Source: Paludisphaera mucosa (GTDB lineage Bacteria; Planctomycetota; Planctomycetia; Isosphaerales; Isosphaeraceae). From it: a stretch of 64,000 bases of DNA. The notes beneath the pieces were generated by a model, which saw nothing but the letters and a program-made list of their open reading frames with translations, did no database searches and had not been told where the DNA came from. Below, in pieces: positions 42,577 through 58,574 of this stretch. Within the stretch, counting starts at the first letter, position 1. Every line of letters starts with the position of its first letter. The DNA lies in NCBI RefSeq assembly GCF_029589435.1, contig NZ_JARRAG010000002.1, forward strand, positions 3,844,001 to 3,908,000. The letters run 5' to 3'. A program made the position numbers and the translations under genes.

Positions 42577-43530
42577 TCAAGACGCGACGGCCGGGCCCGA
42601 TCCCAGGGCCATCAAGTGCGTCGCGACGCAGCCGGCCAGGAGCGAGGGGTTGTAGCCGCCTTCGAGCACGCTGACGACCCGCCCCTGGGCGTGGGTCTCG
42701 GCGACGTCCACGACGTCCCGCGTCAGCGCGTCGAAATCCTCGAAGTCGAGCCCCAGCCCGCCGACGGGATCCTCGGCCATCGCGTCGAACCCGGCGCTCA
42801 CGATGACCAGCTCCGGCCGGTGCTTGTCGGCCAGCTTGTGCAGCCCCGCGCGAAACGCCGCGCGGAACTCGCCGGGCGGCGTCCCGAAGGGGAGGGGGAT
42901 GTTCTTGGTCAGCCCGAGCCCCGGGCCCTCGCCGGTCTCGCGCTCCAGGCCGGTGCCGGGATAGAAGGGGTGGCGATGGATCGACAGGAAGGCGACCTCG
43001 GCCGACTCGTAGAAGGCCTCCTGCGTGCCGTTGCCGTGATGGACGTCGAAATCGACGATCAGGATGCGATTCGCCGCGTGACGTGCGACCGCCTCGCGGG
43101 CGGCGACGGCGACGTTCGAGAAGAGGCAGAATCCCATCGCACCGCCCGGCAAGGCGTGATGCCCCGGCGGCCGGACCAGGCCCATCGCGCGGCGATGCTT
43201 GCCCCCCATGACGTCGGCGACCGCCTCGATGGCCGCGCCGGCCGCCAGCCGGGCCGCCGTGAGCGATCCGGGCGACATCCAGGTGTCGGCGTCCAGCGGC
43301 CCGCCGCCGCGTCGGTCGGCGGCTTCGAGCGAGGCAAGGTAGGCCGCCGAATGGACCCGGCGCAGCTCGTCGTCGGTCGCCTCGCGGACGACCCCCGCGG
43401 GGCAGGCGTCGAGCAGGCCCGTGCGTTTGAGGTGGCGGAGGATCGCCTCCAGCCGCTCGGGCTTCTCGGGGTGCTTATCCGGGGGCCGATGCTCGATCAT
43501 GCGGCGATCGACGTACAGGGCGACCGACAT
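42577..43530 (-). CDS. histone deacetylase-like amidohydrolase (arginase/deacetylase superfamily)
   Basis: A zinc hydrolase that probably removes acetyl groups from polyamines, acetoin-related compounds or proteins. The ATG at 43530 gives a 317-residue protein. Family blocks: KHPEKPERLEAILRHL near the N-terminus, RPPGHHA (tandem active-site His), VDFDVHHGNGTQEAFY (zinc-binding Asp/His), and AGFDAMAEDPVGGLGL (second zinc Asp). LEGGYN provides the conserved Gly-Gly-Tyr. Bacterial members include acetylpolyamine aminohydrolases and AcuC; the substrate here is unresolved. A TAGGAT box lies 44-49 bp upstream. It is followed (3' side) by the convergent tRNA-Glu. Confidence 0.92.
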   Translation of the reverse strand: MSVALYVDRRMIEHRPPDKHPEKPERLEAILRHLKRTGLLDACPAGVVREATDDELRRVHSAAYLASLEAADRRGGGPLDADTWMSPGSLTAARLAAGAAIEAVADVMGGKHRRAMGLVRPPGHHALPGGAMGFCLFSNVAVAAREAVARHAANRILIVDFDVHHGNGTQEAFYESAEVAFLSIHRHPFYPGTGLERETGEGPGLGLTKNIPLPFGTPPGEFRAAFRAGLHKLADKHRPELVIVSAGFDAMAEDPVGGLGLDFEDFDALTRDVVDVAETHAQGRVVSVLEGGYNPSLLAGCVATHLMALGSGPAVAS

Positions 43531-43642
43531 GCCGACCTCCCGGGTGCTCTCGCGGAACTTCTGAGACGGCCCGATCCTAACCCGGGCGCCGGCCGAATGC
43601 GAGACGCCGCACGGTTTCCCGTGGAACAGGGCGGGCGGAGGC

Positions 43643-45199
43643 TCAGAGCCGACGCCAGCGGGCGCCGTCGCGACCCACGAGCGCGTCGGCGTCGGCGGGG
43701 CCCCAGGTGCCGGCGGGATACTCGACGGGCGGCGGCGCGTCCGGCTTGTCCCAGGCATCGAGGATCGAGGTGATGAACCGCCAGGCGTTCTCGACCTCGT
43801 CGGTGCGCGTGAAGAGCGTCGGGTCGCCGAGCATGACGTCGAGCAGCAGCCGCTCGTAGGCCTCGGGCGGCGGGGCGGCGAAGGCGGTGCCGTAGCGGAA
43901 GTCCATCCGGACCTCCTGGAGCCGCCGTCGCGAGCCCGGGATCTTGGCCTCGAAGGTCAGGCTCGCGCCCTCGTTGGGCTGGATGCGGAGCACGAGCTGG
44001 TTGCCGACCGACTGGCCATCGTGCTCGACGTCGAAGAGCCGGGTCGGCGGCCGGTGGAACTGGATGGCGATCTCGGTGGCGCGCTTGGGCAGCCGCTTGC
44101 CGGTCCGGAGGAAGAAGGGCACGCCGGCCCAGCGCCAGGTGTTCAGGGTCAGCCGGATGGCCACGTACGGCGCGGTCGTCGAATCGGGGGCGACCCCCTT
44201 CTCCTGGAGGTAGCCGGGGACGTCCTCGCCCTCGATCGAGCCTGCGGCGTAGCGGGCGCGGACGACGTTCTCGTAGACGTCGGCGGGATTCCAGCGGGGG
44301 AGGGCCTGGAGGACCTTGACCTTCTCGTTGCGGACGGCGTCGGCCGAGAGGTCGACGGGGGGCTCCATCGCCACCAGGCAGAGGAGCTGGAGCATGTGGT
44401 TCTGGACCATGTCGCGGATCGCGCCGGCGGAGTCGTAGTACGACCCCCGATTGCCGGGCATGCCCACTTCCTCGGCGACGGTGATCTGCACCGAGGCGAC
44501 GTGGCGGCGGTCCCAGATCGGCTCGAAGATGCTGTTGCCGAACCGGAACGCCAGGATGTTCTGGACCGTCTCCTTGCCCAGGTAGTGGTCGATCCGGTAG
44601 ATCTGGCTCTCGTCGAGGACCCGCGAGGCGTCGCGGCTGAGCGCCCGGGCGCTCTCCAGGTCGTGGCCGAACGGCTTCTCGATGACGACCCGGCTCCAGG
44701 GCTCGTCCTGCTGCCAGGGGTAGACCAGCCCCGCCTTGCCGAGCTGGTCGACGATCGGCCGGAAGAACTCCGGCGCCACGGCCAGGTAGAAGACGCGGTT
44801 GCCGCGGGTGCCGTGGGTGCGGTCCAGCTCGTCGAGCTTGGCCTTGAGGTTCTGGAAGGCCTCGGGCTCGTCGAACGTCCCCGGCGCGAAGATCAGGCGG
44901 GAGGCGAACTGGGGCCAGACCTGCTTGAAGTCGCCGCCCTTCTCCTCCTCGGTCACCGACTTCTCGTATTCGCGCCTGAGGTCCTCGTCGGTCCAGTCCC
45001 GCCGGCCGAAGCAGACCACCGCGCACTCGGTGGGGAGGTTCCCCCGGTGGTAGAGGTGGTACAGCGCGGGGACCAGCTTGCGGTGCGCGAGGTCGCCCGT
45101 CGCGCCGAAGAGCACGATCGCGCAGGGCTGCGGCGCCTGGGCGCGGGGGAGGGCCTGGCGGAGCGGGTTGGAATCGGCTTCGAGGGGAGGCTCGGCCAT
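43643..45199 (-). CDS. zwf: glucose-6-phosphate dehydrogenase
   Basis: Oxidises glucose 6-phosphate to 6-phosphogluconolactone with NADP, the entry to the oxidative pentose-phosphate pathway. The ATG at 45199 gives 518 residues. NADP-binding GATGDLAHRK is near the N-terminus, VIEKPFGHDLESARALSRD is the coenzyme/substrate region, and the active-site block is RIDHYLGKETVQNI. VPFFLRTGKRLPKRATEI and DEVENAWRFITSILDAW lie further on. The open frame continues to 47179 only as the antisense of downstream plus-strand genes. It has a good promoter 68-96 bp upstream. Its assembly factor opcA is about 26 kb away in the window. Confidence 0.96.
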   Translation of the reverse strand: MAEPPLEADSNPLRQALPRAQAPQPCAIVLFGATGDLAHRKLVPALYHLYHRGNLPTECAVVCFGRRDWTDEDLRREYEKSVTEEEKGGDFKQVWPQFASRLIFAPGTFDEPEAFQNLKAKLDELDRTHGTRGNRVFYLAVAPEFFRPIVDQLGKAGLVYPWQQDEPWSRVVIEKPFGHDLESARALSRDASRVLDESQIYRIDHYLGKETVQNILAFRFGNSIFEPIWDRRHVASVQITVAEEVGMPGNRGSYYDSAGAIRDMVQNHMLQLLCLVAMEPPVDLSADAVRNEKVKVLQALPRWNPADVYENVVRARYAAGSIEGEDVPGYLQEKGVAPDSTTAPYVAIRLTLNTWRWAGVPFFLRTGKRLPKRATEIAIQFHRPPTRLFDVEHDGQSVGNQLVLRIQPNEGASLTFEAKIPGSRRRLQEVRMDFRYGTAFAAPPPEAYERLLLDVMLGDPTLFTRTDEVENAWRFITSILDAWDKPDAPPPVEYPAGTWGPADADALVGRDGARWRRL

Positions 45200-45964: not shown

Positions 45965-47587
45965 ATGACGGAGACGGCGGCGACGGGAACGGGGACCGGC
46001 CCACGATGGGGGATCTTCGCCCTCGGGGTGCTGTGCGCGGCGGCGGGCGTGGCCGGCTCGGCCCTCTTCCTGCCGCGTCAGAGCCTCTGGAACGACGAGG
46101 CGACCCAGATGTCGGGGTTGACCCTCGACCCGATCGCGCTGGTCCGCTGGCTGGCGAACCTGGACGAGCACGAATTCGGCGTGGCCGAGGATCGCATGCC
46201 CCCCCTGAGCTACTGGGTCGGCTGGGCCTGGTCGCGGGTCTTCGGCCTGACCGAGACGTCGATGCGGATCATGGGGGTCACGCTCAAGGCGCTGGCGACG
46301 CTCCTGGTCTTCGCGGCCGGACGCCGGACGTGGGGGACGGCGTCGGGGGCGGCCGCGGCGCTCCTGTTCGGGCTCGCGCCCAACGTCGTGGTGGCGTCGG
46401 TCGAGATCCGCGCCTATCCGCTCTTCATGCTGACCTCGGCCGGCCTGTTCTACTGCACGACGCGGCTGCTGGACGAGCCGGCGGAGCGTCAGCCGCGGTG
46501 GCTCGCGGGCATGACGGCCTGCGCGATCGCCGGGATCTTCACCCATTTCTTCGGGCTGGTGGCGGCGGGCGGGGCGTTCCTGGCCGCGCTCGTGATCGCG
46601 CCGAGGCGGGGGGGGCGGCTGGCCCCGATCCTGGCGGCGTGCGCGGTCGTGGCCCTGGCCACCGGGGGGGTCGCGCCGTTCGTCATGGCGTCGGTGAACA
46701 TGACCGACAGCAAGCCCGAGTTCGGCACCCTCCGCAACGTCGCCCGGTTCATCTACCGTCTGGTCTTCCACGCGTCGATGCGGCCGAGCCTGGCGGCGAC
46801 GCTGGCGGCGGCGGCCGGATTCGCGCTGGCGGGCCTCGCCTGCCTCGCCCCCGCGGGCCGCGGCCGCGACGCGCGGAACGGGCTGCTGATCGCCGGGGTC
46901 TCGGGGATCCTCGTCGTCGTGGCGGCGTCTCGATACGCCTCGTTCAACACCCTGGCGACGCATTACAGCTCCTGGATCCAACCCGTGCTGGCCCTTCTGC
47001 TCGGCTCCGGGCTGGCCGCCGCGCGGCCCTGGGCCCGGCGGGCGAGCCTGGTCGGCGTCGCCGCGATGCTCGGGGCCGTCCTGTACGGCGATTACACGCT
47101 GGCGACCCGCGGCGACGCCTTCGCGCACACCGGGTTCGCCCTGGTCGACGGCGCGGTCCGCCGCTTCGGCCCGGAGCACACGGTCGTCGTCTATGACGAG
47201 GTGGGCAACCCCTGGGACGTCTACGCGCCGCTGCGAGCCCGATACGGCGGCCGGCCGCCCCAGTTCGTCCTGACGGGGGAGGAGGGCGGGCGCATCCGCC
47301 TCGTCGACTATCCCAAAAAGCTCATGGAGACCGACCTGGCGTCGATCCCCGGCGAATACCTGATCGTCGTCCGCTGGCTCAATCGCAGCTCGGACGAGGT
47401 CGTCGAGCAGCTCAACGGCGGCTACCGCGAGATCGGCGACGGCGCGGCGTCGCGCTTCCTGAAGAGTTCGCCGGACTGGACCCTCGTCGAGGAGGGCGTC
47501 GCGCTGGCCTACGTCGCCGAGGAGATCGACGTCTTCCGCCGCAAGTCGACCGCGCCGGCCCCGGCGGCGAGCGGAGCCGATCGATGA
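45965..47587 (+). CDS. GT39-like membrane glycosyltransferase
   Basis: A 540-residue protein with about 10-11 membrane helices. The first outer loop has SLWNDEATQMSGLTLDP, the acidic NDE motif typical of GT-C/GT39 transferases. RMPPLSYWVGWAWSRVFGLT and SVEIRAYPLFMLTSAGLFY resemble later family loops. The C-terminal ~110 residues are soluble. The acceptor is unknown. It is one of two GT39-like proteins in the window (the other at 14057-15736). The stop overlaps the start of the dipeptidase gene by 4 bp (ATGA), so they are coupled. Confidence 0.82.
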   Translation: MTETAATGTGTGPRWGIFALGVLCAAAGVAGSALFLPRQSLWNDEATQMSGLTLDPIALVRWLANLDEHEFGVAEDRMPPLSYWVGWAWSRVFGLTETSMRIMGVTLKALATLLVFAAGRRTWGTASGAAAALLFGLAPNVVVASVEIRAYPLFMLTSAGLFYCTTRLLDEPAERQPRWLAGMTACAIAGIFTHFFGLVAAGGAFLAALVIAPRRGGRLAPILAACAVVALATGGVAPFVMASVNMTDSKPEFGTLRNVARFIYRLVFHASMRPSLAATLAAAAGFALAGLACLAPAGRGRDARNGLLIAGVSGILVVVAASRYASFNTLATHYSSWIQPVLALLLGSGLAAARPWARRASLVGVAAMLGAVLYGDYTLATRGDAFAHTGFALVDGAVRRFGPEHTVVVYDEVGNPWDVYAPLRARYGGRPPQFVLTGEEGGRIRLVDYPKKLMETDLASIPGEYLIVVRWLNRSSDEVVEQLNGGYREIGDGAASRFLKSSPDWTLVEEGVALAYVAEEIDVFRRKSTAPAPAASGADR

Positions 47588-48678
47588 GGACCCTGATCGA
47601 CGGCCACCTCGACCTGGCCTGGAACGCCCTGGGATGGGACCGGGACGTCACGCTCGACCTCGACGCCCTCAACGGCCGCGAGGCGAAGCTCACGGACCAT
47701 CCCGCCCGGGGCCGGGCGACGACCACCCTGCCCGAGATGCGCCGGGGGGGAGTCGCCGTCTGCCAGGCGACCGTGCTCTGCCGCGCCAAGGCCGTCAGCC
47801 GCTGGGACGAGTTCGCCCAGGGGCCGCCCCGGGCGAACCTCGATTGGTGCAACCAGGATATCGCCTCGGCCGCGGCCCGGGGCCAGCTCGCCTACTACGA
47901 GCGGCTGGAGCGCCGGGGGCTCTTGCGGCCGATCCGCACCCGATCCGAGCTGGACGACCACTGGTCGCGATGGGATGCGGACCCGGCGACGACCCCGATC
48001 GGCTTCATCCTGGCGATGGAGGGGTGCGACCCGATCGTCGAGCCCGACCGCGCGGACGAATGGTGGGACCTCGGCCTCCGCTCGGCGAACCTCGCGCACT
48101 ACGGGGCGAGCCGATACGCCGTGGGCACCGGCGGGGAGGGCCCGCTGACGCCCGCCGGCCGGGAGCTCCTCCGCGAGTTCGAGCGGCTGGGGATGATCCT
48201 CGACGTCACCCACCTCTCCGACGAGGGCTTCTTCCAGGCGCTCGACGCCTTCTCGGGCCCGGTCCTGGCCAGCCACAACAACTGCCGGGCCCTGGTGCCC
48301 GCCCAGCGGCAGTTCTCCGACGAGCAGCTCAAGCTGCTGATCGCCCGCGACGCGGTCGTCGGCGTGGCGCTCGACGCCTGGATGCTCCATCCCGGCTGGG
48401 TCCGGCATGAAACCTCTCGGTCGGTCGTCGGGCTCGAGGCGCTGGTCGACCATATCGACCACGTCTGCCAGCTCGCCGGCGACGACCGGCACGTCGCGAT
48501 CGGCAGCGACCTCGACGGCGGCTTCGGCACCGAGCAGACCCCGACCGGCCTCGATCGGATCTCCGACCTCCAGAAGCTCGACGCCCTGCTCGCCGCCCGG
48601 GGCTACGCCGACGCCGCGATCGACGCGGTCTTCCACGGCAACTGGCTCCGTTTCTTCCGCGAGCATCTGCCCGCCTGA
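47584..48678 (+). CDS. M19-family (renal-dipeptidase-like) membrane dipeptidase
   Basis: A dinuclear zinc metallopeptidase of 364 residues. The metal ligands are visible: His8 and Asp10 in DGHLDLAWN, bridging Glu in LAMEGCDP, His in DVTHLSD, His in LASHNNCRAL, and Asp in GSDLDGGFG. RSANLAHYGASRYAVGTGGEGPLTPAG is the family's central region. Cytoplasmic or anchored location cannot be told; no signal peptide is seen. Start overlaps the upstream GT39-like gene. The next gene starts 38 bp downstream. Confidence 0.92.
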   Translation: MRTLIDGHLDLAWNALGWDRDVTLDLDALNGREAKLTDHPARGRATTTLPEMRRGGVAVCQATVLCRAKAVSRWDEFAQGPPRANLDWCNQDIASAAARGQLAYYERLERRGLLRPIRTRSELDDHWSRWDADPATTPIGFILAMEGCDPIVEPDRADEWWDLGLRSANLAHYGASRYAVGTGGEGPLTPAGRELLREFERLGMILDVTHLSDEGFFQALDAFSGPVLASHNNCRALVPAQRQFSDEQLKLLIARDAVVGVALDAWMLHPGWVRHETSRSVVGLEALVDHIDHVCQLAGDDRHVAIGSDLDGGFGTEQTPTGLDRISDLQKLDALLAARGYADAAIDAVFHGNWLRFFREHLPA

Positions 48679-48716: not shown

Positions 48717-51700
48717 ATGATGGATCGTGCGGAGCGATCCCGGATGGCGGCGGAGCGACCAGCGGTGGCCGAGGTCACGTGGAACGAGCGCGCGTGGTGC
48801 GAGCAGGCTCGCGCCCTGGCCCGGAAGGGCGACGACGGGGCGGGGGAGCCCGTGCGCGCCGCGCGGCTGGGTCGGATGCTGGCCCACGTCGAGGCCGGCT
48901 GGCGGATCCGCGGGACGTTCGACGGCCATTCGGGCGATCCCGGCGGCGACCGGATCCGCCGCTCGGTGGTCCGCGGCCTGGCCGACCTCCGCCGCGCCGT
49001 CGACGACCTGCTCGCGAAGGTCGAGCCCGACGGCGAGGCCGAGCGGCTGGCCGCGGCCAAGCTCCGCGAGTGGATCGCCCGCGAGCGGTCGACGCTCCAG
49101 GCCGTGCTGACGAACCCGCAGGTCGACCCGTTCCGCCGCCTCCTCAGCCTGGACGCGATTCGGGGCGACCTCGAATGGTTCGGCCTGCTGCTCGACCGCC
49201 TGGAGGGCGATCCGGGGCCCGGACCCGCGGCCTGGCTCGAGGTCGAGCTGGCCAAGGTCCGCCGCCTGCTGGAAGACGAGCCCCGCCGCCCCAAGGCGCG
49301 CGCCCGCCGCGCGGCGCTGCGGGCGCGCTGCGAGCGGATGCGCGGAATCCTGCTGGAGCGTCGCGTCCGCAAGGAACTCGACGCCGCACTGGAGGAGGCC
49401 GCGCCCGAGCGGCTGGCCGCGGTCCGCAACAAGCTGTCGAGGCTCCAGGCCCGCGTCGGGGCCCTGGAGCCGGTCGCCGACGCGGCGGACGACTCGGCGT
49501 CCGACTCCGGCTCCCACCCGACCATCGACCCCGACGTCGAGCGGCCCGGCGACGACCCCGTCGCCTGGACGAAGGCCCTCGCGGCCCGGCGCGCGGAGGT
49601 CGCCGAGCGGATCGACGAGAGCCTGCTCGCCATGCCCCCCGCGCAGGCCTCGGCCGCCTGCGCGCGGATCGTCCAGGGCGCGCGCGACGAGCTGGCCGAG
49701 ATGATCGCCTTCCTCCAGGACGCCCCGATGCGGCGGGCGGTCCTCCGCCTGGAGACGGCCGAGGAGGACATGGATCGGCTGACGGCGACGATGCAGACCC
49801 TCCGCCGCGCCGGCCGCCGCGCCCCGGAGGAGAGGCGGCCCACCTCCGAGGACTGCCGACGCCTGGACGACGCCCTCGGCGACGTCCGCCGGCTCCACGG
49901 CACGATCCGCGGCGAGTGGCAGGAGAAGCTGCTCACGTTCCGGCTCCAGAACCTGCTGGGCCGCCGCGGCGCGACGCTGCTGGACAACGTCGTCCTCGCC
50001 CTGATCATCGCCCTGTCCCTGCTGATCGTGGGCGAGACGCTCCTCGACCGCTCGGGCGGCCTGTCGCATTCACGACTCGCCCTCTTCGCCTGGCTCGACC
50101 TGGCCGTCTGCTCGGGCCTGATGGCCGAGTTCCTGCTGAAGTGGACCCTCGCGCCGGCGCGCGGGGTCTACTTCGTGCAGCACTTCGTGATCGACTTCCT
50201 GGCGTCGCTGCCGTTCGGCTTCCTCGCCTTCGTGATGGACGAGCAGCTCTCGCCGGGCGGCGAGCAGACGCTCTGGCTCCTGCGCTACCTGCGGTTCGCC
50301 CGGATCCTGGAGATCCTCTTCTTCCTCCGCCTGGCGATGCCCGTCGTCAGGCTGGCGAGGCTGGCGCTCTTCGCGCTGAGGCTGAGCGACCGCCTGGTGC
50401 GGCGGAACGCCGGGCTCCTGAACCGCAACGTGATCCTGTTCGAGCCGAATCAGACGAACCGCGCCGAGTCGAGCGACCGCCACCGCCTGGCGTTGCTCCG
50501 CGGCGAGGTCCAGGCCGCCGAATCGAACCTCGGCCGCCGGCTCCATCGCGAGCAGCAGGACGCCCTGGCGGCGCGGCGGCTCTCCGACCTGGCCGTCCGC
50601 CTCGGTTTCCTCCCCGACCGCCAGATCGAGCCCCTGAGCGAGCATCGCGACGGCCGCGAGATCCCCGTCGAGGCGCTCGTCGAGCGGCTGATCCAGCTCA
50701 CGCCCGAGACCCTGGTCGACCGCATGGGCCAGACTTTCGTCGCCTCGGTCGACGGCTACCTCCGGGTGCTCGACGCCCCGATCGTGCGTCGGCTGCCGCT
50801 GATCCGCAGCCTGGTCGCCCACCGCGAGAAGTCGCCGGCCGAGGCCGTGGCGCTGGCGGCGAACTACGTCGGCTACGCCGTCCAGCGCGGGCTGGACCTG
50901 ATCTACTTCCTGGCCGACCTTCAGGCGACGCTCTCGCCGGCCATCTTCCTCGACCGCCTGGGGCTGACGCTGGTCAACGCGACCCGCACGCCGGCCAAGC
51001 GGCTGCTCTGGCTGGGGACGCTCTTCCTCGTCCTCTTCGTGACGGTCAACGTCGTCGGCTTCCTGAGCGCCTTCCGGCCGTTCGTCGACGGCGTACAGCA
51101 GAAGCTGGGCTGGCCGGTGATCGTCCTCGGCTGCGTCTGCCTGGGCTTCTGGTCGCTGGGATCCTGGCTGCGGCGGATCGCCAACCAGTCGGCCGACTTC
51201 TGCGAGCGGCTCGTCGAGGCCCAGTTCGCCGCCCAGACGAAGACGTTCAAGGCCCGCCGCAGCGAGCAAGACGCCCGGTTCCTCGCCGAGCGGGTCGTCG
51301 ACCCCGAGATCGCCCTGCGGTCGTCCGACGACCACGTCCCCGGGCTCTACCGCGACGTCCCCACCGCCGCCGCCGACGTCGAGGCGATCTTCGTCAGCCC
51401 CCAGACCCGGTTCGCCAACCGCGAGCTGTCGTTCCTGCGGAACATCCGCCTCCTCTACCAGGACTACCTCGACGGCTCGCCGTTCCATCGCAGCGACGTC
51501 AAGACGTCGGTCCAGCTCCTGGGCAACCTCGCCCTGACGAACCTGCGGCGGAGCCGGATCGAGTCCCTCCTCGGCGAGAACCGGGCGCTGGGGCGGCTCG
51601 ACATGAGCCGGGCGGGGGGGCTGCTGGGCGGGCCCTACCTCTGGTTCAACTACATCACGCGGATCATCGTCCAGGAGACGGCCGTCTTGCTCCTGGACTA

Positions 51701-53219
51701 CAACACCCACGCCGTCCCGCTCGACCGCCTGGCGTGCTCGTCGCCGGGGGCCCGGCGGGCCTTCCAGGAGTGGCTGGGCAAGCGGCTGCGGATCGCCCCC
51801 GACGAGGTCCGCCTGCCCGCGCCCAACGTCGCCGAGTCGTCGCCGGCTCCCGAGCCGCCGCAGGCCCCCCGCGCCGCGCGGCGGTTCGAGGCCTCCGCGT
51901 TCCTGGAGACGGTCGAGTTCACCGCGATCGACTTCCTGGCCGAGGACGCCGGCCGCGACGCCGAGATCCTCGAACGGTTCGGCCCCCAGGTCGCGCAGCT
52001 CGTCCGCCGCGACCGCCAGCAGAACGTCCGCCGGGCCTTCTGGAGCTTCCCGCTCCAGGAGCTGCCGCTCGCCCAGCGCACGATCAACCCCTACGCCTTC
52101 TACGAGAGCCGGCTCTCGGGCGGGCGGATCGCCTTCTTCCCGTTCGTCGTGGCCGCGGCCTTCTTCAAGAGCGTCTGGGTCGCCGTCCGGGGCGTGTACG
52201 ACGGCGTCCACGAGATCCTCAACCCCCAGGTGATCCGCGAGCGCGACGTCCCGGCCGACGCCTACGCCGCCGCGCACCGCAAGATCCACCGGATGCGCAA
52301 GCCGGTGTTCATGGGGTCGCTCTGGCTCCGGGCCCGGCTCGACGTCGAGTACCTGGGCCTGCAGCTGCCGACCGCGCCGGCGGTCCTGGGCTTCGACTCG
52401 ACGATGGAGGCCGACCTCGACTTCATCGGGGCCTCGCGCAAGGACCGGATCGTCGCCGAGCGGATCCGCCGCGACCACCAGCGCCGGCTGGCCTGGACGG
52501 CCCGCTGGCTGGCGCGGTTCGGCTGGACGTTCGACGAGCTGCCGGCGTTCCTCTCGCGCGAGGTCCCCTTCCTGGCGAACCGGGCGAGCGAGGCCCTGCG
52601 GGCGCTCGTCTCGGCCTGCGTCCTCGACCACGACGACCTCGCCACCCTCGGCCAGTCGATCGAGGCGATCACCGCCCTCGCGGCCTACGCGGCCGATCCC
52701 GCCTCGGACCTGAGGCGGCTGCCGCCCGGCCTGCCCGACCCGGTGGTCAACCCGCGTCGCCTCTGGCGGCCCGTCCCGCGCCAGGGGCCGGCCTTCCGGC
52801 GGCTGTTCGACCTGCCGGCCTTCGCCGCCTACGACCCGGCCGCCCGCAAGCGGATCGTCGCCTTCCTCCGCCGCCACCGCCGCGTGACCCGGGGATGGTA
52901 CCGCGTCGTCATGGGCCAGGGGGGGGCCGACCCCTGGGCCGAGGTCCGCGCGCGGCTCCACGAGGTCCTGCTCAAGACCGACCTCTGGAGCGACCAGATC
53001 CTGATCCTCCGCTCGGTGCAGACTCTGACCATGCTCGACGTCCACCACAACTGCGAGCTGGTCTGGTCCCTCGGCGGCTACGAGGATCCCGAGCCCGACG
53101 AGCCCCCCTCGGCACCCCGGTCGGGCCCCGCCGCCACCGCCGCTGGCCCCGGCTCGGCCCCCGACTGGTGGTCCGACCGCCCCGACGCCGAACGCGAGCG
53201 CGTCGCCTCCGACGCCTGA
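48717..53219 (+). CDS. giant multidomain membrane protein with voltage-sensor-like S1-S4 module and no visible pore
   Basis: 1500 residues. The N-terminal ~415 are helical and highly charged (coiled-coil-like). Residues about 420-557 form four helices in voltage-sensor order: S1 (LDNVVLALIIALSLLIVGET), S2 (AWLDLAVCSGLMAEFLLKW, with the family's acidic E-F-L-L-K), S3 (FVQHFVIDFLASLPFGFLA, matching the IDLLAxLPF pattern of Kv-type channels), and S4 (LRYLRFARILEILFFLRLAM), where Arg recurs every third residue. No TVGYG or other selectivity filter follows; instead a ~200-residue soluble stretch leads to two more helices (about 761-783 and 799-820), then a 680-residue cytoplasmic-looking part. It lies 38 bp after the dipeptidase. 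Function unknown; possible voltage-dependent regulator or enzyme. Confidence 0.75.
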   Translation: MMDRAERSRMAAERPAVAEVTWNERAWCEQARALARKGDDGAGEPVRAARLGRMLAHVEAGWRIRGTFDGHSGDPGGDRIRRSVVRGLADLRRAVDDLLAKVEPDGEAERLAAAKLREWIARERSTLQAVLTNPQVDPFRRLLSLDAIRGDLEWFGLLLDRLEGDPGPGPAAWLEVELAKVRRLLEDEPRRPKARARRAALRARCERMRGILLERRVRKELDAALEEAAPERLAAVRNKLSRLQARVGALEPVADAADDSASDSGSHPTIDPDVERPGDDPVAWTKALAARRAEVAERIDESLLAMPPAQASAACARIVQGARDELAEMIAFLQDAPMRRAVLRLETAEEDMDRLTATMQTLRRAGRRAPEERRPTSEDCRRLDDALGDVRRLHGTIRGEWQEKLLTFRLQNLLGRRGATLLDNVVLALIIALSLLIVGETLLDRSGGLSHSRLALFAWLDLAVCSGLMAEFLLKWTLAPARGVYFVQHFVIDFLASLPFGFLAFVMDEQLSPGGEQTLWLLRYLRFARILEILFFLRLAMPVVRLARLALFALRLSDRLVRRNAGLLNRNVILFEPNQTNRAESSDRHRLALLRGEVQAAESNLGRRLHREQQDALAARRLSDLAVRLGFLPDRQIEPLSEHRDGREIPVEALVERLIQLTPETLVDRMGQTFVASVDGYLRVLDAPIVRRLPLIRSLVAHREKSPAEAVALAANYVGYAVQRGLDLIYFLADLQATLSPAIFLDRLGLTLVNATRTPAKRLLWLGTLFLVLFVTVNVVGFLSAFRPFVDGVQQKLGWPVIVLGCVCLGFWSLGSWLRRIANQSADFCERLVEAQFAAQTKTFKARRSEQDARFLAERVVDPEIALRSSDDHVPGLYRDVPTAAADVEAIFVSPQTRFANRELSFLRNIRLLYQDYLDGSPFHRSDVKTSVQLLGNLALTNLRRSRIESLLGENRALGRLDMSRAGGLLGGPYLWFNYITRIIVQETAVLLLDYNTHAVPLDRLACSSPGARRAFQEWLGKRLRIAPDEVRLPAPNVAESSPAPEPPQAPRAARRFEASAFLETVEFTAIDFLAEDAGRDAEILERFGPQVAQLVRRDRQQNVRRAFWSFPLQELPLAQRTINPYAFYESRLSGGRIAFFPFVVAAAFFKSVWVAVRGVYDGVHEILNPQVIRERDVPADAYAAAHRKIHRMRKPVFMGSLWLRARLDVEYLGLQLPTAPAVLGFDSTMEADLDFIGASRKDRIVAERIRRDHQRRLAWTARWLARFGWTFDELPAFLSREVPFLANRASEALRALVSACVLDHDDLATLGQSIEAITALAAYAADPASDLRRLPPGLPDPVVNPRRLWRPVPRQGPAFRRLFDLPAFAAYDPAARKRIVAFLRRHRRVTRGWYRVVMGQGGADPWAEVRARLHEVLLKTDLWSDQILILRSVQTLTMLDVHHNCELVWSLGGYEDPEPDEPPSAPRSGPAATAAGPGSAPDWWSDRPDAERERVASDA

Positions 53220-55724: not shown

Positions 55725-58574
55725 TCAGTGCCGCAGGGCGACGGGGATTCGAATCTCGCCGAGATCGAGCCGGCCAGCCCCCCAGGGGTGGATCGGGTTG
55801 CATCCCACCCGGAAATCGGGCGGGGCCGATGAGGCGGGCCAAGGCCGGATTTCATAGTCCTCGCCGACGAGAAGCGGCGGCGACGAAAAGCGGCCCGCGT
55901 GGTCGGTGGACGTGAGCCCGCCGACCACCCGATCCAATCGCCCCCAGCGACCGACCTGAGTCCGCCGCAACCAAAGCATTTTCATCGCCGGCCGGGGGTT
56001 GCGCGCTCCATCGACGACGACTCCCACGACCCTCGCCGTGGGGCGGACGACGATCGTAACCTCCGACGTTTCGGGGGCGACGACGATGCTCGTCGCCATC
56101 GAGCCGTCGCGATTCGTGACGTAGAGGGCCTGTTCGAAACGATCGACCTCGACGCAGAACCGTCCGTCGCGGCCGGTTGTCACGAATCGAGTCGGCTCCG
56201 GACCGATCTCGACGACCGCTCCCGCGACCGTTCCGCCCGCCTCATCGGCGACCCGGCCGACGAGGAGCCGTCGCTTGGGGCGGTCGAGGTGATGGTCGCG
56301 AACCTCCTCGGCCTGACCCGAGATCTGCAAGATCTCGCCGGGCGGACGTGAGTCGAAGGTCAGCCGATAGTTTCCTGGGCCGACATTGAGCGCGTACCGT
56401 CCGTCGGCGTCGGTCCTCGCGCCGACGATTGGTGAGCCCGGCCGGATCCGAACTTCGCCGATCCCCACCGGCGGGGGGAGAGAGCCGATGTCCTCGCTGG
56501 CCGAGACGGCCACGCCCGATGCGGGGCCGCGTTCAGGGCCCAACGTCACCCGGCCTCGGATCACCGTACCCCGTGCGAGCTTGAAGTCGATCCCGTTGAC
56601 GAGCGCCCCCGCCTTCAGCTCGACGCCCTCAAGGGAGGGAGCGGCCCACGTCTCGTGCTCGACCCAGATGCAATAGCTCTCGCCCGGCGGGACGTTCATC
56701 GCGTAGACCCCGTCCGCGGCCGTACGAGCCCAGCCCGACCCGTGGTTGTGATCCCACCCCGAACCCACCGCCCGGACCGTGAGCCCGCGCGCGGGGGAGC
56801 CGTCGGGGAGTGCGACGCGGCCCCGGACCGGGACCATGCGGTGCACGAACCGCTCGACCGAGGTTTCTCCTTCGGGGTCGATCTCGATCGATCGCCGGGA
56901 GAGCGAACCATCAGCCGGGTAGAACACTGTCCGCGAGGGCGACGTCGGGAGCCAGTCGAAGACGGCGACGCCGTCCGGCCCCGTGGTCGCCTCCATCAGA
57001 CGGCTTCGGAAGTTGATGAGGGAGCGGCGCGAGTCGCTTCGAAGGCTGGGGACGAACAACGGGACGTCCGCCAGGGGGCCCGCTTCGCCTAAAAGTCGGA
57101 TCTTGACCGTCCAGGGCTCGCGGAGTTCGAGCGTGACGGATTCCTGGAGTTCTGCGGCGGGCACGCCCTGCGGCGTGGCCACGTTGAGGAGGTCGCCGAA
57201 CTCCACGTAATCGAATCCTTCGCCGCCCTTGCGGGCGACGACCCACTGGACGCGGGCATCCGTGGGAAGGAGGAGCCGGGCCCGGCCGGCGGAGTCGGTC
57301 TCGGCGTGGGCGACCACGCAACGATCGGAGACGGCCTCGACCATCGCCCCGCCGACGGGCCCCCCGACCGTCTCCACGCGGACGTCCAGCGTCCCGCCCG
57401 GGCTTACCACGATCCGAGCCGGGTCGACCTGCGGGGCGTGGAGAGGAGAACGCGCGTAGACGTGCTTGCCGACGCGACGGCCGTCCGGGGAGAGGACGAG
57501 GACGCCCAGGCTGTCGACCGGCCGCATCGCGAACGAGCCGTCCGGACCGGTCAGCCCCCGGCGCTCGTCCGAACCGTAGGCGTTGAGCAAGACTTCGGCC
57601 CCCGCCACGGGCCGTCCGGCCTCGTCGACCACGACGCCGCGGACGGTTTCCTCGTCGCTCGCTTCGGGCTTCGACGACTCGGCCAGGAACGAAGCGGGTT
57701 CGTTCGGACGCGCGGCGTGGCCCCAGCCGAGCCCTGAGCCCAGGGCGAGGGCCCCCGCGGCGCATGCGGCCATCGCGAGCCATTTCCATCGGGAGGGGGC
57801 GAGCATGGCGAGGACTCCTTCGGCCAGGGAGGCGACGGCCTCCGAGACCGTCCCGGGGACCGCGCCGTTCCGGGTTGCATTCAAGGCGAGTCGCAGGGCC
57901 GAGTCGGGCAGGGGGGACGCCTTGGAGGGGGAGGCCAGGACCGCGCCGAGCAGGCCGACGGCCAGGCCGCGGCGGGCGAGGCGGTCGCGCAGCAGCGATC
58001 TCCCCCGCGCCAGGCGGCTCGACAGCGTCCCTTCGGCCAGGCCGAGTCGTTCGGCGGCGTCGCGACGCGGCAGGCCGTCCAGCTCGCAGAGGCGGATCGC
58101 CTCGCGGAACCGCGCGGGCAGCCGGTCGAGTTCCTCGTCGAGGATCGACTTCAGCTCGAACAGGTCGGGGTCCGGAGCGTCCGCGGCGCGACCGACGTCG
58201 AGCGCGATCCCCTCGCGGGCCCGGATCCGGGCCGATCGCACGCGGACCTCGCGGCCGGTCCGCACGGCCACGACCCGGAGCCAGCCGCCTATGTCTTCCA
58301 CCCCCCGGATCGCCCCGGCCTTGCGCGCCAGGACGAGGAAGACGGCCTGGAACGCGTCGTCGACGTCGGCCGACGCTCCCAGCATCCGCCGACAGGTGGC
58401 GAGCACCATCGGCCCGTGGCGCTGGACGATCGCCGCGAAGGCGTCTTCGCGATCCACCCCGTCGAGGCTCGCGAACCGCTCCAGGAGCCGGCCGTCGCTC
58501 AACGACCCGACCGAGCCCGTCGCGTACAGGGACCCGATCCGCCGGACCGTGCCGTCCTCCGACGTCCTCTGCAT
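55725..58574 (-). CDS. ECF sigma factor fused to membrane helix and carboxypeptidase-regulatory-like (CarboxypepD_reg) domains
   Basis: 949 residues. The sigma part (about 25-200) has region 2 ([20 protein letters not shown], then WLRVVAVRTGREVRVRSAR) and region 4 (RRDAAERLGLAEGTLSSRLA then RGRSLLRD). A hydrophobic stretch at about 265-285 (WKWLAMAACAAGALALGSGL) would cross the membrane once. The outer ~650 residues hold several beta-sandwich repeats of the CarboxypepD_reg/Ig-like type, each with VxGVVVDEAGRPVAGAEV-like turns: VRGVVVDEAGRPVAGAEVLL, VRGRVALPDGSPARGLTV, LVGRVADEAGGTVAGAVVEI. It is probably a membrane-tethered sigma factor released by a signal; the sensor could bind carbohydrate or protein. 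Release mechanism is inference. It faces the rpsG terminator. Confidence 0.9.
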   Translation of the reverse strand: MQRTSEDGTVRRIGSLYATGSVGSLSDGRLLERFASLDGVDREDAFAAIVQRHGPMVLATCRRMLGASADVDDAFQAVFLVLARKAGAIRGVEDIGGWLRVVAVRTGREVRVRSARIRAREGIALDVGRAADAPDPDLFELKSILDEELDRLPARFREAIRLCELDGLPRRDAAERLGLAEGTLSSRLARGRSLLRDRLARRGLAVGLLGAVLASPSKASPLPDSALRLALNATRNGAVPGTVSEAVASLAEGVLAMLAPSRWKWLAMAACAAGALALGSGLGWGHAARPNEPASFLAESSKPEASDEETVRGVVVDEAGRPVAGAEVLLNAYGSDERRGLTGPDGSFAMRPVDSLGVLVLSPDGRRVGKHVYARSPLHAPQVDPARIVVSPGGTLDVRVETVGGPVGGAMVEAVSDRCVVAHAETDSAGRARLLLPTDARVQWVVARKGGEGFDYVEFGDLLNVATPQGVPAAELQESVTLELREPWTVKIRLLGEAGPLADVPLFVPSLRSDSRRSLINFRSRLMEATTGPDGVAVFDWLPTSPSRTVFYPADGSLSRRSIEIDPEGETSVERFVHRMVPVRGRVALPDGSPARGLTVRAVGSGWDHNHGSGWARTAADGVYAMNVPPGESYCIWVEHETWAAPSLEGVELKAGALVNGIDFKLARGTVIRGRVTLGPERGPASGVAVSASEDIGSLPPPVGIGEVRIRPGSPIVGARTDADGRYALNVGPGNYRLTFDSRPPGEILQISGQAEEVRDHHLDRPKRRLLVGRVADEAGGTVAGAVVEIGPEPTRFVTTGRDGRFCVEVDRFEQALYVTNRDGSMATSIVVAPETSEVTIVVRPTARVVGVVVDGARNPRPAMKMLWLRRTQVGRWGRLDRVVGGLTSTDHAGRFSSPPLLVGEDYEIRPWPASSAPPDFRVGCNPIHPWGAGRLDLGEIRIPVALRH

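Follow-up and report, generated by a model that had tools for sequence, protein, structure and literature searches.

The window analysed here is a stretch of 64,000 nucleotides from Paludisphaera mucosa. On its forward strand, positions 48717–53219 form an open reading frame of 1,500 codons plus stop, which encodes a protein of 1,500 residues. It is a real gene, with 20 full-length homologues at 36–79% identity, the closest of which are 77–79% identical (L002–L005, L061 and L062, the last from Paludisphaera soli and seemingly identical in sequence to L004). The preliminary description, which had read the product as a giant protein with a voltage-sensor-like S1–S4 module and no ion pore, was confirmed as a whole: the frame encodes a voltage-sensor domain (VSD) protein that lacks a pore. 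The features of the gene, with counts from an alignment of 59 homologues, and its upstream neighbour are as follows.

47584–48678, + strand: neighbouring membrane dipeptidase (Peptidase_M19 by Pfam), ending 38 bases before the giant gene
48717–53219, + strand: whole gene, VSD protein without a pore, 1,500 residues (open reading frame, homologues)
48717–49961, + strand: N-terminal region, residues 1–415, the least conserved part, of no known family (alignment, Pfam, PDB)
49983–50048, + strand: S1, residues ~423–444, acid kept at 423 (57/59) and 440 (57/59)
50079–50150, + strand: S2, residues ~455–478, with D461 (59/59), F/L468 (38/21), E/D471 (59/59) and K/R475 (59/59)
50172–50237, + strand: S3, residues ~486–507, residue 493 being D in 45, E in 8, G in 4 and M in 2 of 59, and P499 present in 59/59
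50274–50396, + strand: S4 and its helical continuation, residues ~520–560, with R523, R526, R529, R538, P542, R545, R548, R555 and D558
50397–50444, + strand: post-S4 segment, residues 561–576 (VRRNAGLLNRNVILFE), highly conserved, a candidate coupling element (conservation profile, alignment)
50445–50996, + strand: residues 577–760, helical in the AlphaFold model, of no known family in profile searches
51003–51068, + strand: hydrophobic helix TM5, residues ~763–784 (family hydropathy)
51105–51167, + strand: hydrophobic helix TM6, residues ~797–817, about a dozen residues past TM5 (family hydropathy)
51279–53096, + strand: all-helical conserved C-terminal module, residues 855–1460, of no known family (model, profile searches), with no fold match of weight
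52125–52196, + strand: hydrophobic helix, residues 1137–1160, perhaps membrane-associated (hydropathy cut-off reached in 33/58)

For the alignment, 72 sequences longer than 950 residues were taken, some of them cut by contig ends; shorter pieces were excluded and 13 near-duplicates removed. The four hydrophobic helices described earlier were found in order at residues ~422–556, and the acids of S2 and S3 were located as described, the first being E471 in AEFLLKW and the second D493 in VIDFLASLPF. Both belong to a charge-transfer site that is well kept in the family, with the S2 acid (E/D471) in 59/59 sequences and the S3 acid (D/E493) in 53/59. The bulky residue three positions before the S2 acid, at 468, is F in 38/59 and L in 21/59, the window protein having L. 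At position 493, G or M takes the place of the acid in 6/59, which counts against a voltage sensor.

For S4, LRYLRFARILEI, an Arg at each third position had been proposed. This is correct for R523, R526 and R529, but the run ends there in the window protein, where E532 and F535 precede R538. Across the 59 homologues the i+3 register spans seven positions, from 523 to 541, of which a median of six carry Arg or Lys (seven in 16 sequences, six in 14, five in 7, four in 12, three in 9 and two in 1); 30/59 thus have six or seven charges, and the window protein has four. With the register moved by one position no Arg or Lys is found in 59/59 sequences, and with it moved by two, none in 57/59. The Arg spacing is therefore conserved as a register, though single Arg positions vary, and since the median pairwise identity of the VSD is just 37%, this register has not been maintained by recent descent alone. 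The ladder is thinned in the 21 Isosphaeraceae-type sequences, assigned via family label or record title, which have three charges in 7 cases, four in 8, five in 2 and six in 4, with the outer Arg 523 and 526 missing from several of them. That 15 of these 21 keep three or four of the seven charges counts against the voltage-sensor reading. The mean loop charges (+3.6 for S2–S3, +3.1 after S4, −0.3 for S1–S2 and −1.3 for S3–S4) would fit an S1–S4 unit with both ends cytoplasmic; the charge after TM6, −0.3, departs from the positive-inside pattern and speaks against the explanation that we favour below.

Profile searches placed the same residues among ion-channel VSDs. With the whole protein, Pfam at E up to 10 gave Ion_trans (PF00520) as the sole match, at E = 6.8e-5 and 22.6 bits, which is under the 25-bit cut-off, over profile positions 4–110 of 241. 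The VSD slice (residues 395–580) reached 1.3e-6 and 28.3 bits against the same cut-off of 25, over positions 4–111 of 241, so the match covers the S1–S4 part only. Ion_trans was also matched by 24/24 homologous VSD slices at E up to 1, and by 20/26 longer slices. Against the PDB, the profile of the VSD slice found Kv2.1 (1.2e-6), HCN3 (7.9e-6), Kv3.1 (8.4e-6) and Kv4.2 (1.3e-5), with a weaker match to a voltage-sensor phosphatase (0.0043). In the alignment with Kv2.1, the D461, F468, E471 and D493 columns are occupied by E, F, E and D of the channel, which also has R or K in five of the six ladder columns from 523 to 538.

Structure prediction agreed with this, in that residues 301–1500 were modelled by AlphaFold (mean pLDDT 75, pTM 0.65) with a VSD fold whose best structural match is the isolated VSD of KvAP (Z 12.2, rmsd 3.6, 131/132 residues aligned). 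Voltage-gated channels fill rows 1–9 of the comparison, some of them aligned at large rmsd; plectin, the first unrelated protein, follows at Z 8.9, the same value as row 9. Structural Z values below about 13 can arise by chance for helical bundles without kinship, and the VSD assignment therefore rests on sequence and fold together. Foldseek alone gave the KvAP VSD at E 9.4 and probability 0.63, a weak match that tells against our favoured explanation. The S3–S4 loop and the start of S4 are of low confidence in the model, as is the beginning of a predicted single helix (528–563) that runs from S4 into the conserved charged segment. Taken together, these results support residues ~422–556 as a predicted VSD of ion-channel type. 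Neither of the two outcomes that the preliminary description had named as refuting it, a predicted fold other than a four-helix VSD and an Arg spacing lost in orthologues, was obtained.

Outside the VSD, conservation is good mostly over residues 401–1215, with dips at 576–650, 876–900 and 1026–1050, and poor over the N-terminal 400 residues; the post-S4 segment stands out with a mean of 2.9 bits at 551–575. The earlier statement that the N- and C-terminal flanks match nothing known held within the Pfam, PDB-profile and fold searches made. The N-terminal profile (A7, an alignment of residues 20–415 with 32% mean column identity) had a best PDB match of 0.12, formin-like, and no recurring Pfam match. 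The middle profile (A6) gave no PDB match up to E 1 and likewise no recurring Pfam match, and the C-terminal profile (A3) reached nothing better in the PDB than a non-significant E of 0.89. Models were made on long pieces, residues 301–1500 and 855–1460 (the latter with pLDDT 78 and pTM 0.72), and in both the regions outside the VSD consist of helix and loop, with no strands listed. For the C-terminal model the best Foldseek value was 0.3 and structural Z was at most 5.5, an absence from this comparison excluding nothing. The hydrophobic helix 1137–1160 may touch the membrane. PADLOC returned nothing, and NCBIfam just two sub-threshold PspB models over residues 211–257. As no catalytic family was matched recurrently in the Pfam, NCBIfam and PDB-profile searches, the suggestion that the protein might be an enzyme is unsupported.

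A selectivity-filter motif had been reported as missing, and TxGYG occurs in 0/59 homologues. Bare GYG or GFG is present in 13/59, mostly at the equivalent of window residue 1454, and the one Nav-like pattern among the 59 (in L006) is positioned before the VSD. Also as described, a charged soluble region follows S4, with two more helices some 200 residues on, found at ~763–784 and 797–817. Between columns 557 and 757, which are separated by 199–215 residues in the 59 homologues, the family mean has no hydrophobic segment, and there is no S5–pore loop–S6 arrangement right after S4. The stretch from 776 to 797 measures 17–27 residues in 54/59 sequences and 32–45 in five (L015, L016, L054, L060 and L072), whose TM5–TM6 linker is longer by 10–23 residues (20–23 in four), so that by length alone a loop has room there. 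We rejected an ordinary voltage-gated channel whose pore has been displaced, on the short linker of the 54 and the lack of TxGYG in all 59. In the whole genome, the giant gene is the only PF00520 match at E up to 0.01.

The C-terminal model called for separate consideration, since VGIC and TRP channels make up 27 of the 50 rows in its structural comparison, with Z of 3.0–4.3, values that, being under 8, may reflect a common arrangement; first place goes to TMC-1 (Z 5.5). Most of the VGIC and TRP rows align at about S5–S6 of the channel chains. In the module, helix 1090–1109 has a strongly polar character, with a median of −0.49 for the best 19-residue hydropathy and 0/58 reaching 1.6, and helix 972–998 is low (median 0.92, 0/59 at 1.6). 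The cut-off of 1.6 is not a strict one: S3 reaches it in 14/59 (median 1.42) and S4 in 19/59 (median 1.43). Because the aligned helices are polar, the S5–S6-like rows were set aside, by judgement and not by proof, and in our judgement the channel-like match probably reflects a common helical arrangement.

The giant gene is patchily distributed. Of 148 relatives searched, 27 matched, and with one (G084) being an ordinary channel, 26 are true relatives; the gene is present in 23/45 Isosphaeraceae-type genomes (family f1, G000–G044). This patchiness within the Planctomycetota (26/148) weighs against the explanation preferred here. A 21-row profile matched 70/392 genomes of the phylum, 12 of them in the VSD part only, with open frames of 265–608 residues. 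Seven short proteins from this search, six of the 12 VSD-only matches and one further short match (G418), served as controls, and 4/7 carry the TxGYG filter (L027, L143, L144 and L145). One 608-residue frame (L141, 2094–3917, + strand), whose N-terminal segment gives a weak match (2.1e-4) to the VSD part of the profile, looks like a TrkH-type K+ transporter. A scan of GTDB species with two exact peptide patterns, and hence of limited reach, gave 25 loci, of which 22 are titled as Planctomycetota or as members of that phylum, two are labelled 'bacterium' and one lies on a 3.6 kb contig that bears the label Nealsonbacteria, perhaps through mis-binning. No relative was found in viral contigs (two exact peptide patterns) or in plasmids, and an origin from a mobile element was set aside on these grounds. 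D461 is present in all 59 sequences, and VSD and module have therefore been inherited together within this set.

Upstream of the giant gene, the window and 9/45 loci (L061–L105, some too short to tell) carry a Peptidase_M19 dipeptidase, directly before the gene in most of these and about 1 kb away in L064. In L071, L074 and L075 the giant gene is preceded by a short conserved ORF, which may be MazG-like, with gaps of 37, 17 and −3 bases. Another arrangement is found in L087 (3742–16263) and L112 (3551–15926), where a secretin, a T2SSE-type ATPase, the VSD gene, a one-TM protein and a GTPase/pentapeptide-type protein follow in this order, the ATPase ending 49 and 27 bases, respectively, before the VSD gene. 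L092 has a secretin, T2SSE (3 bases before) and the VSD gene, and L086 the VSD gene, a one-TM protein and a GTPase; L086, L087 and L092 were annotated by Pfam, and the genes of L112 were named via similarity to L087. Our impression is that the one-TM protein of the L087/L112 cluster has a GspC/PilP-like tail. No universal partner gene was found across the giant-gene loci, the neighbours being lineage-specific; this is a further point against our favoured explanation, and the neighbourhood was discarded as a guide to the function of the giant protein. Elsewhere in the window, 55728–58574 (− strand) is a 949-residue frame in which sigma-70 regions 2 and 4 are joined to carboxypeptidase-regulatory-like repeats and which, by its domains, is a long-tailed sigma factor. 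At 42580–43758 (− strand), between tRNA-Glu and glucose-6-phosphate dehydrogenase, lies the gene of a histone deacetylase-like protein (Hist_deacetyl, 1.6e-90).

A PF00520 survey of 79 relatives revealed a second kind of pore-less VSD protein, with frames of 579–664 residues, in five Isosphaeraceae-type genomes (G014, G019, G020, G031 and G033), none of which is among the 23 genomes that carry the giant gene. The five genes, termed VSD-cyclases here, are:

L107, 2091–4082, + strand: VSD-cyclase (PF00520 and PF00211)
L108, 2177–3913, + strand: VSD-cyclase (PF00520 and PF00211)
L109, 1267–3045, − strand: VSD-cyclase (PF00520 and PF00211)
L110, 2258–4042, + strand: VSD-cyclase (PF00520 and PF00211)
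L111, 2137–3945, + strand: VSD-cyclase (PF00520 and PF00211)

All five pass the cut-offs of both Pfam models, with E values of 1.5e-14 to 1.5e-12 for Ion_trans and of 2.7e-9 to 7.3e-8 for Guanylate_cyc (PF00211), and their Ion_trans matches end at profile position 119–120 (four) or 157 (one). S4 reads RFVRGFRILRILRGLRILRAL or a near form, and two further hydrophobic segments flank a stretch that by eye is roughly 80 residues long, with no TxGYG, GYG or GFG in the five proteins. Judged by the pattern of class III cyclases, the residues for metal binding and catalysis appear to be in place. In 294 genomes, a sample that evidently excluded the five source genomes, the matches listed (E up to 1e-25) contain no further VSD-cyclase and are to the cyclase domain only, the lowest model start among them being 285 of 595. 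The VSD-cyclase is a putative voltage-to-cyclic-nucleotide transducer.

We consider it rather likely that the giant protein is a stand-alone voltage sensor of the inner membrane in which S4 drives a large helical module with a regulatory output. S1–S4 would belong to the voltage-gated-channel superfamily, as a VSD that retains the charge-transfer site (the acids of S2 and S3, the bulky F/L and the Arg ladder of S4), and a change in membrane potential would shift S4. Because S4 continues as one helix into the highly conserved charged segment 548–576, its movement would pull on the helical module, which would be tied back to the membrane by TM5–TM6, and a change in the shape of the module would alter its interaction with a partner or substrate. 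The protein may in this way read membrane voltage and signal to something other than a channel; the voltage response, the coupling via 548–576, the membrane orientation and the regulatory (non-conducting, non-enzymatic) nature of the output are what we infer.

The S1–S4 unit of many TRP-type channels no longer senses voltage, and by the same token S1–S4 of the giant protein could derive from a VSD but have lost voltage sensing and serve as a membrane anchor or in assembly, the function residing in the helical module. The thinned S4 of 15 of the 21 Isosphaeraceae-type sequences (three or four of seven charges) would suit such a loss, as would the E at 532 that the window protein shares with four near relatives. 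We nevertheless find it unlikely, given that 26 of the 35 sequences outside both the Isosphaeraceae-type group and the three f4 sequences retain six or seven charges, that D461, E/D471 and K/R475 are present in 59/59, and that the S4 register is kept at a median VSD pairwise identity of 37%. It is improbable that the giant protein itself conducts ions, be it by an Hv1-like proton or cation path in the VSD or by a pore made from TM5–TM6 or from the C-terminal helices. In the 59 homologues S1 has no acid at 425–439 and has E/D440 in 57; the acid at the outer S1 end would be in keeping with a path through the VSD, and the empty stretch before it would speak the other way, as does residue 528, which is Trp in 0/59 (Trp occurs elsewhere in 523–541 in 15/59). 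For a pore one could cite the longer TM5–TM6 linker in 5/59 and the 27/50 channel rows of the C-terminal model (Z 3.0–4.3). The linker is short in the other 54, however, TxGYG is found in 0/59, the C-terminal helices aligned to S5–S6 are polar (1090–1109) or of low hydropathy (972–998), and Z values below 8 possibly mark a common arrangement.

Very improbable, in our estimate, is a place in a secretion or pilus machine, in which the VSD would inform the ATPase of a type II secretion system or a type IV pilus about the membrane potential. It would account for the secretin and T2SSE ATPase genes beside the VSD gene in L087, L112 and L092, and perhaps for L086 with its one-TM protein and GTPase. 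Such relatives adjoin the gene in just 3/65 loci, though not all loci reach far on both sides. In the Isosphaeraceae-type loci the dipeptidase is found instead, in three other loci the short conserved ORF, and L090, which belongs to the L087 family, is without secretin and T2SSE.

The stand-alone sensor would have a bearing beyond this gene. Whether the Planctomycetota employ channel-less voltage sensors as signalling modules in at least two cases, once as a giant VSD with a helical effector and once as a VSD with a class III nucleotide cyclase, is a proposition that we hold evenly balanced. If true, these would be the first prokaryotic pore-less VSD–effector proteins, transducing membrane potential directly into cell signalling. 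How bacteria might read their own membrane potential other than via channels could be tested directly on the giant VSD family. The preliminary description had called pore-less voltage sensors rare in bacteria. This is supported by a 2023 review, according to which all known prokaryotic VSDs accompany a K, Na or Ca selective pore and Hv1 is given as not found in prokaryotes (PMC10377628). By sequence, the giant VSD family and the VSD-cyclases are exceptions to the pore rule as worded there (PMC10377628). Full-text searches of an open-licence library brought up no paper that describes a bacterial VSD lacking a pore.

Among known systems, the VSDs of KvAP and of Kv/HCN channels (the S1–S4 half of PF00520) are closest in sequence and structure and share the fold and the charge-transfer residues. 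In contrast to these channels, the giant protein has no S5–pore–S6 that we found, and its VSD is preceded by ~415 and followed by ~940 residues that match no family searched. TMEM266 is a voltage-sensor-only protein. Hv1, with the S4 motif RxWRxxR (PMC10377628), is named as the example of a sensor alone (PMC6259924). Like both, the giant protein has a VSD without a pore, but it is 1,500 residues long and lacks the Hv1 Trp at 528 (0/59). The non-channel VSD proteins listed in PMC10651576 are the voltage-sensor phosphatases (VSPs), also covered in PMC13095418, and sNHE. In Ci-VSP, as in the giant protein, a VSD is joined to a non-channel C-terminal part, and a voltage-sensor phosphatase VSD was matched (0.0043); the giant protein is, however, bacterial and without a phosphatase family match, no PTEN-type phosphatase domain being found after its VSD (Pfam at E up to 10, C-terminal PDB profile), and its module is all helical and placed after further membrane helices. 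The sperm Na+/H+ exchanger sNHE (SLC9C) likewise contains a VSD inside a large protein of other function (PMC10651576), whereas the giant protein has no exchanger or cyclic-nucleotide-binding family match (Pfam, E up to 10). A protozoan cyclase combines a VSD with a K+ pore (PMC10651576), in which it differs from the Isosphaeraceae VSD-cyclase. The latter and the giant protein come from the same bacterial family, and in both a pore-less bacterial VSD is followed by a further pair of hydrophobic segments and by a C-terminal part; compared with each other over the VSD only, they differ in that the output of the VSD-cyclase is identifiable as a cyclase (PF00211 in 5/5).
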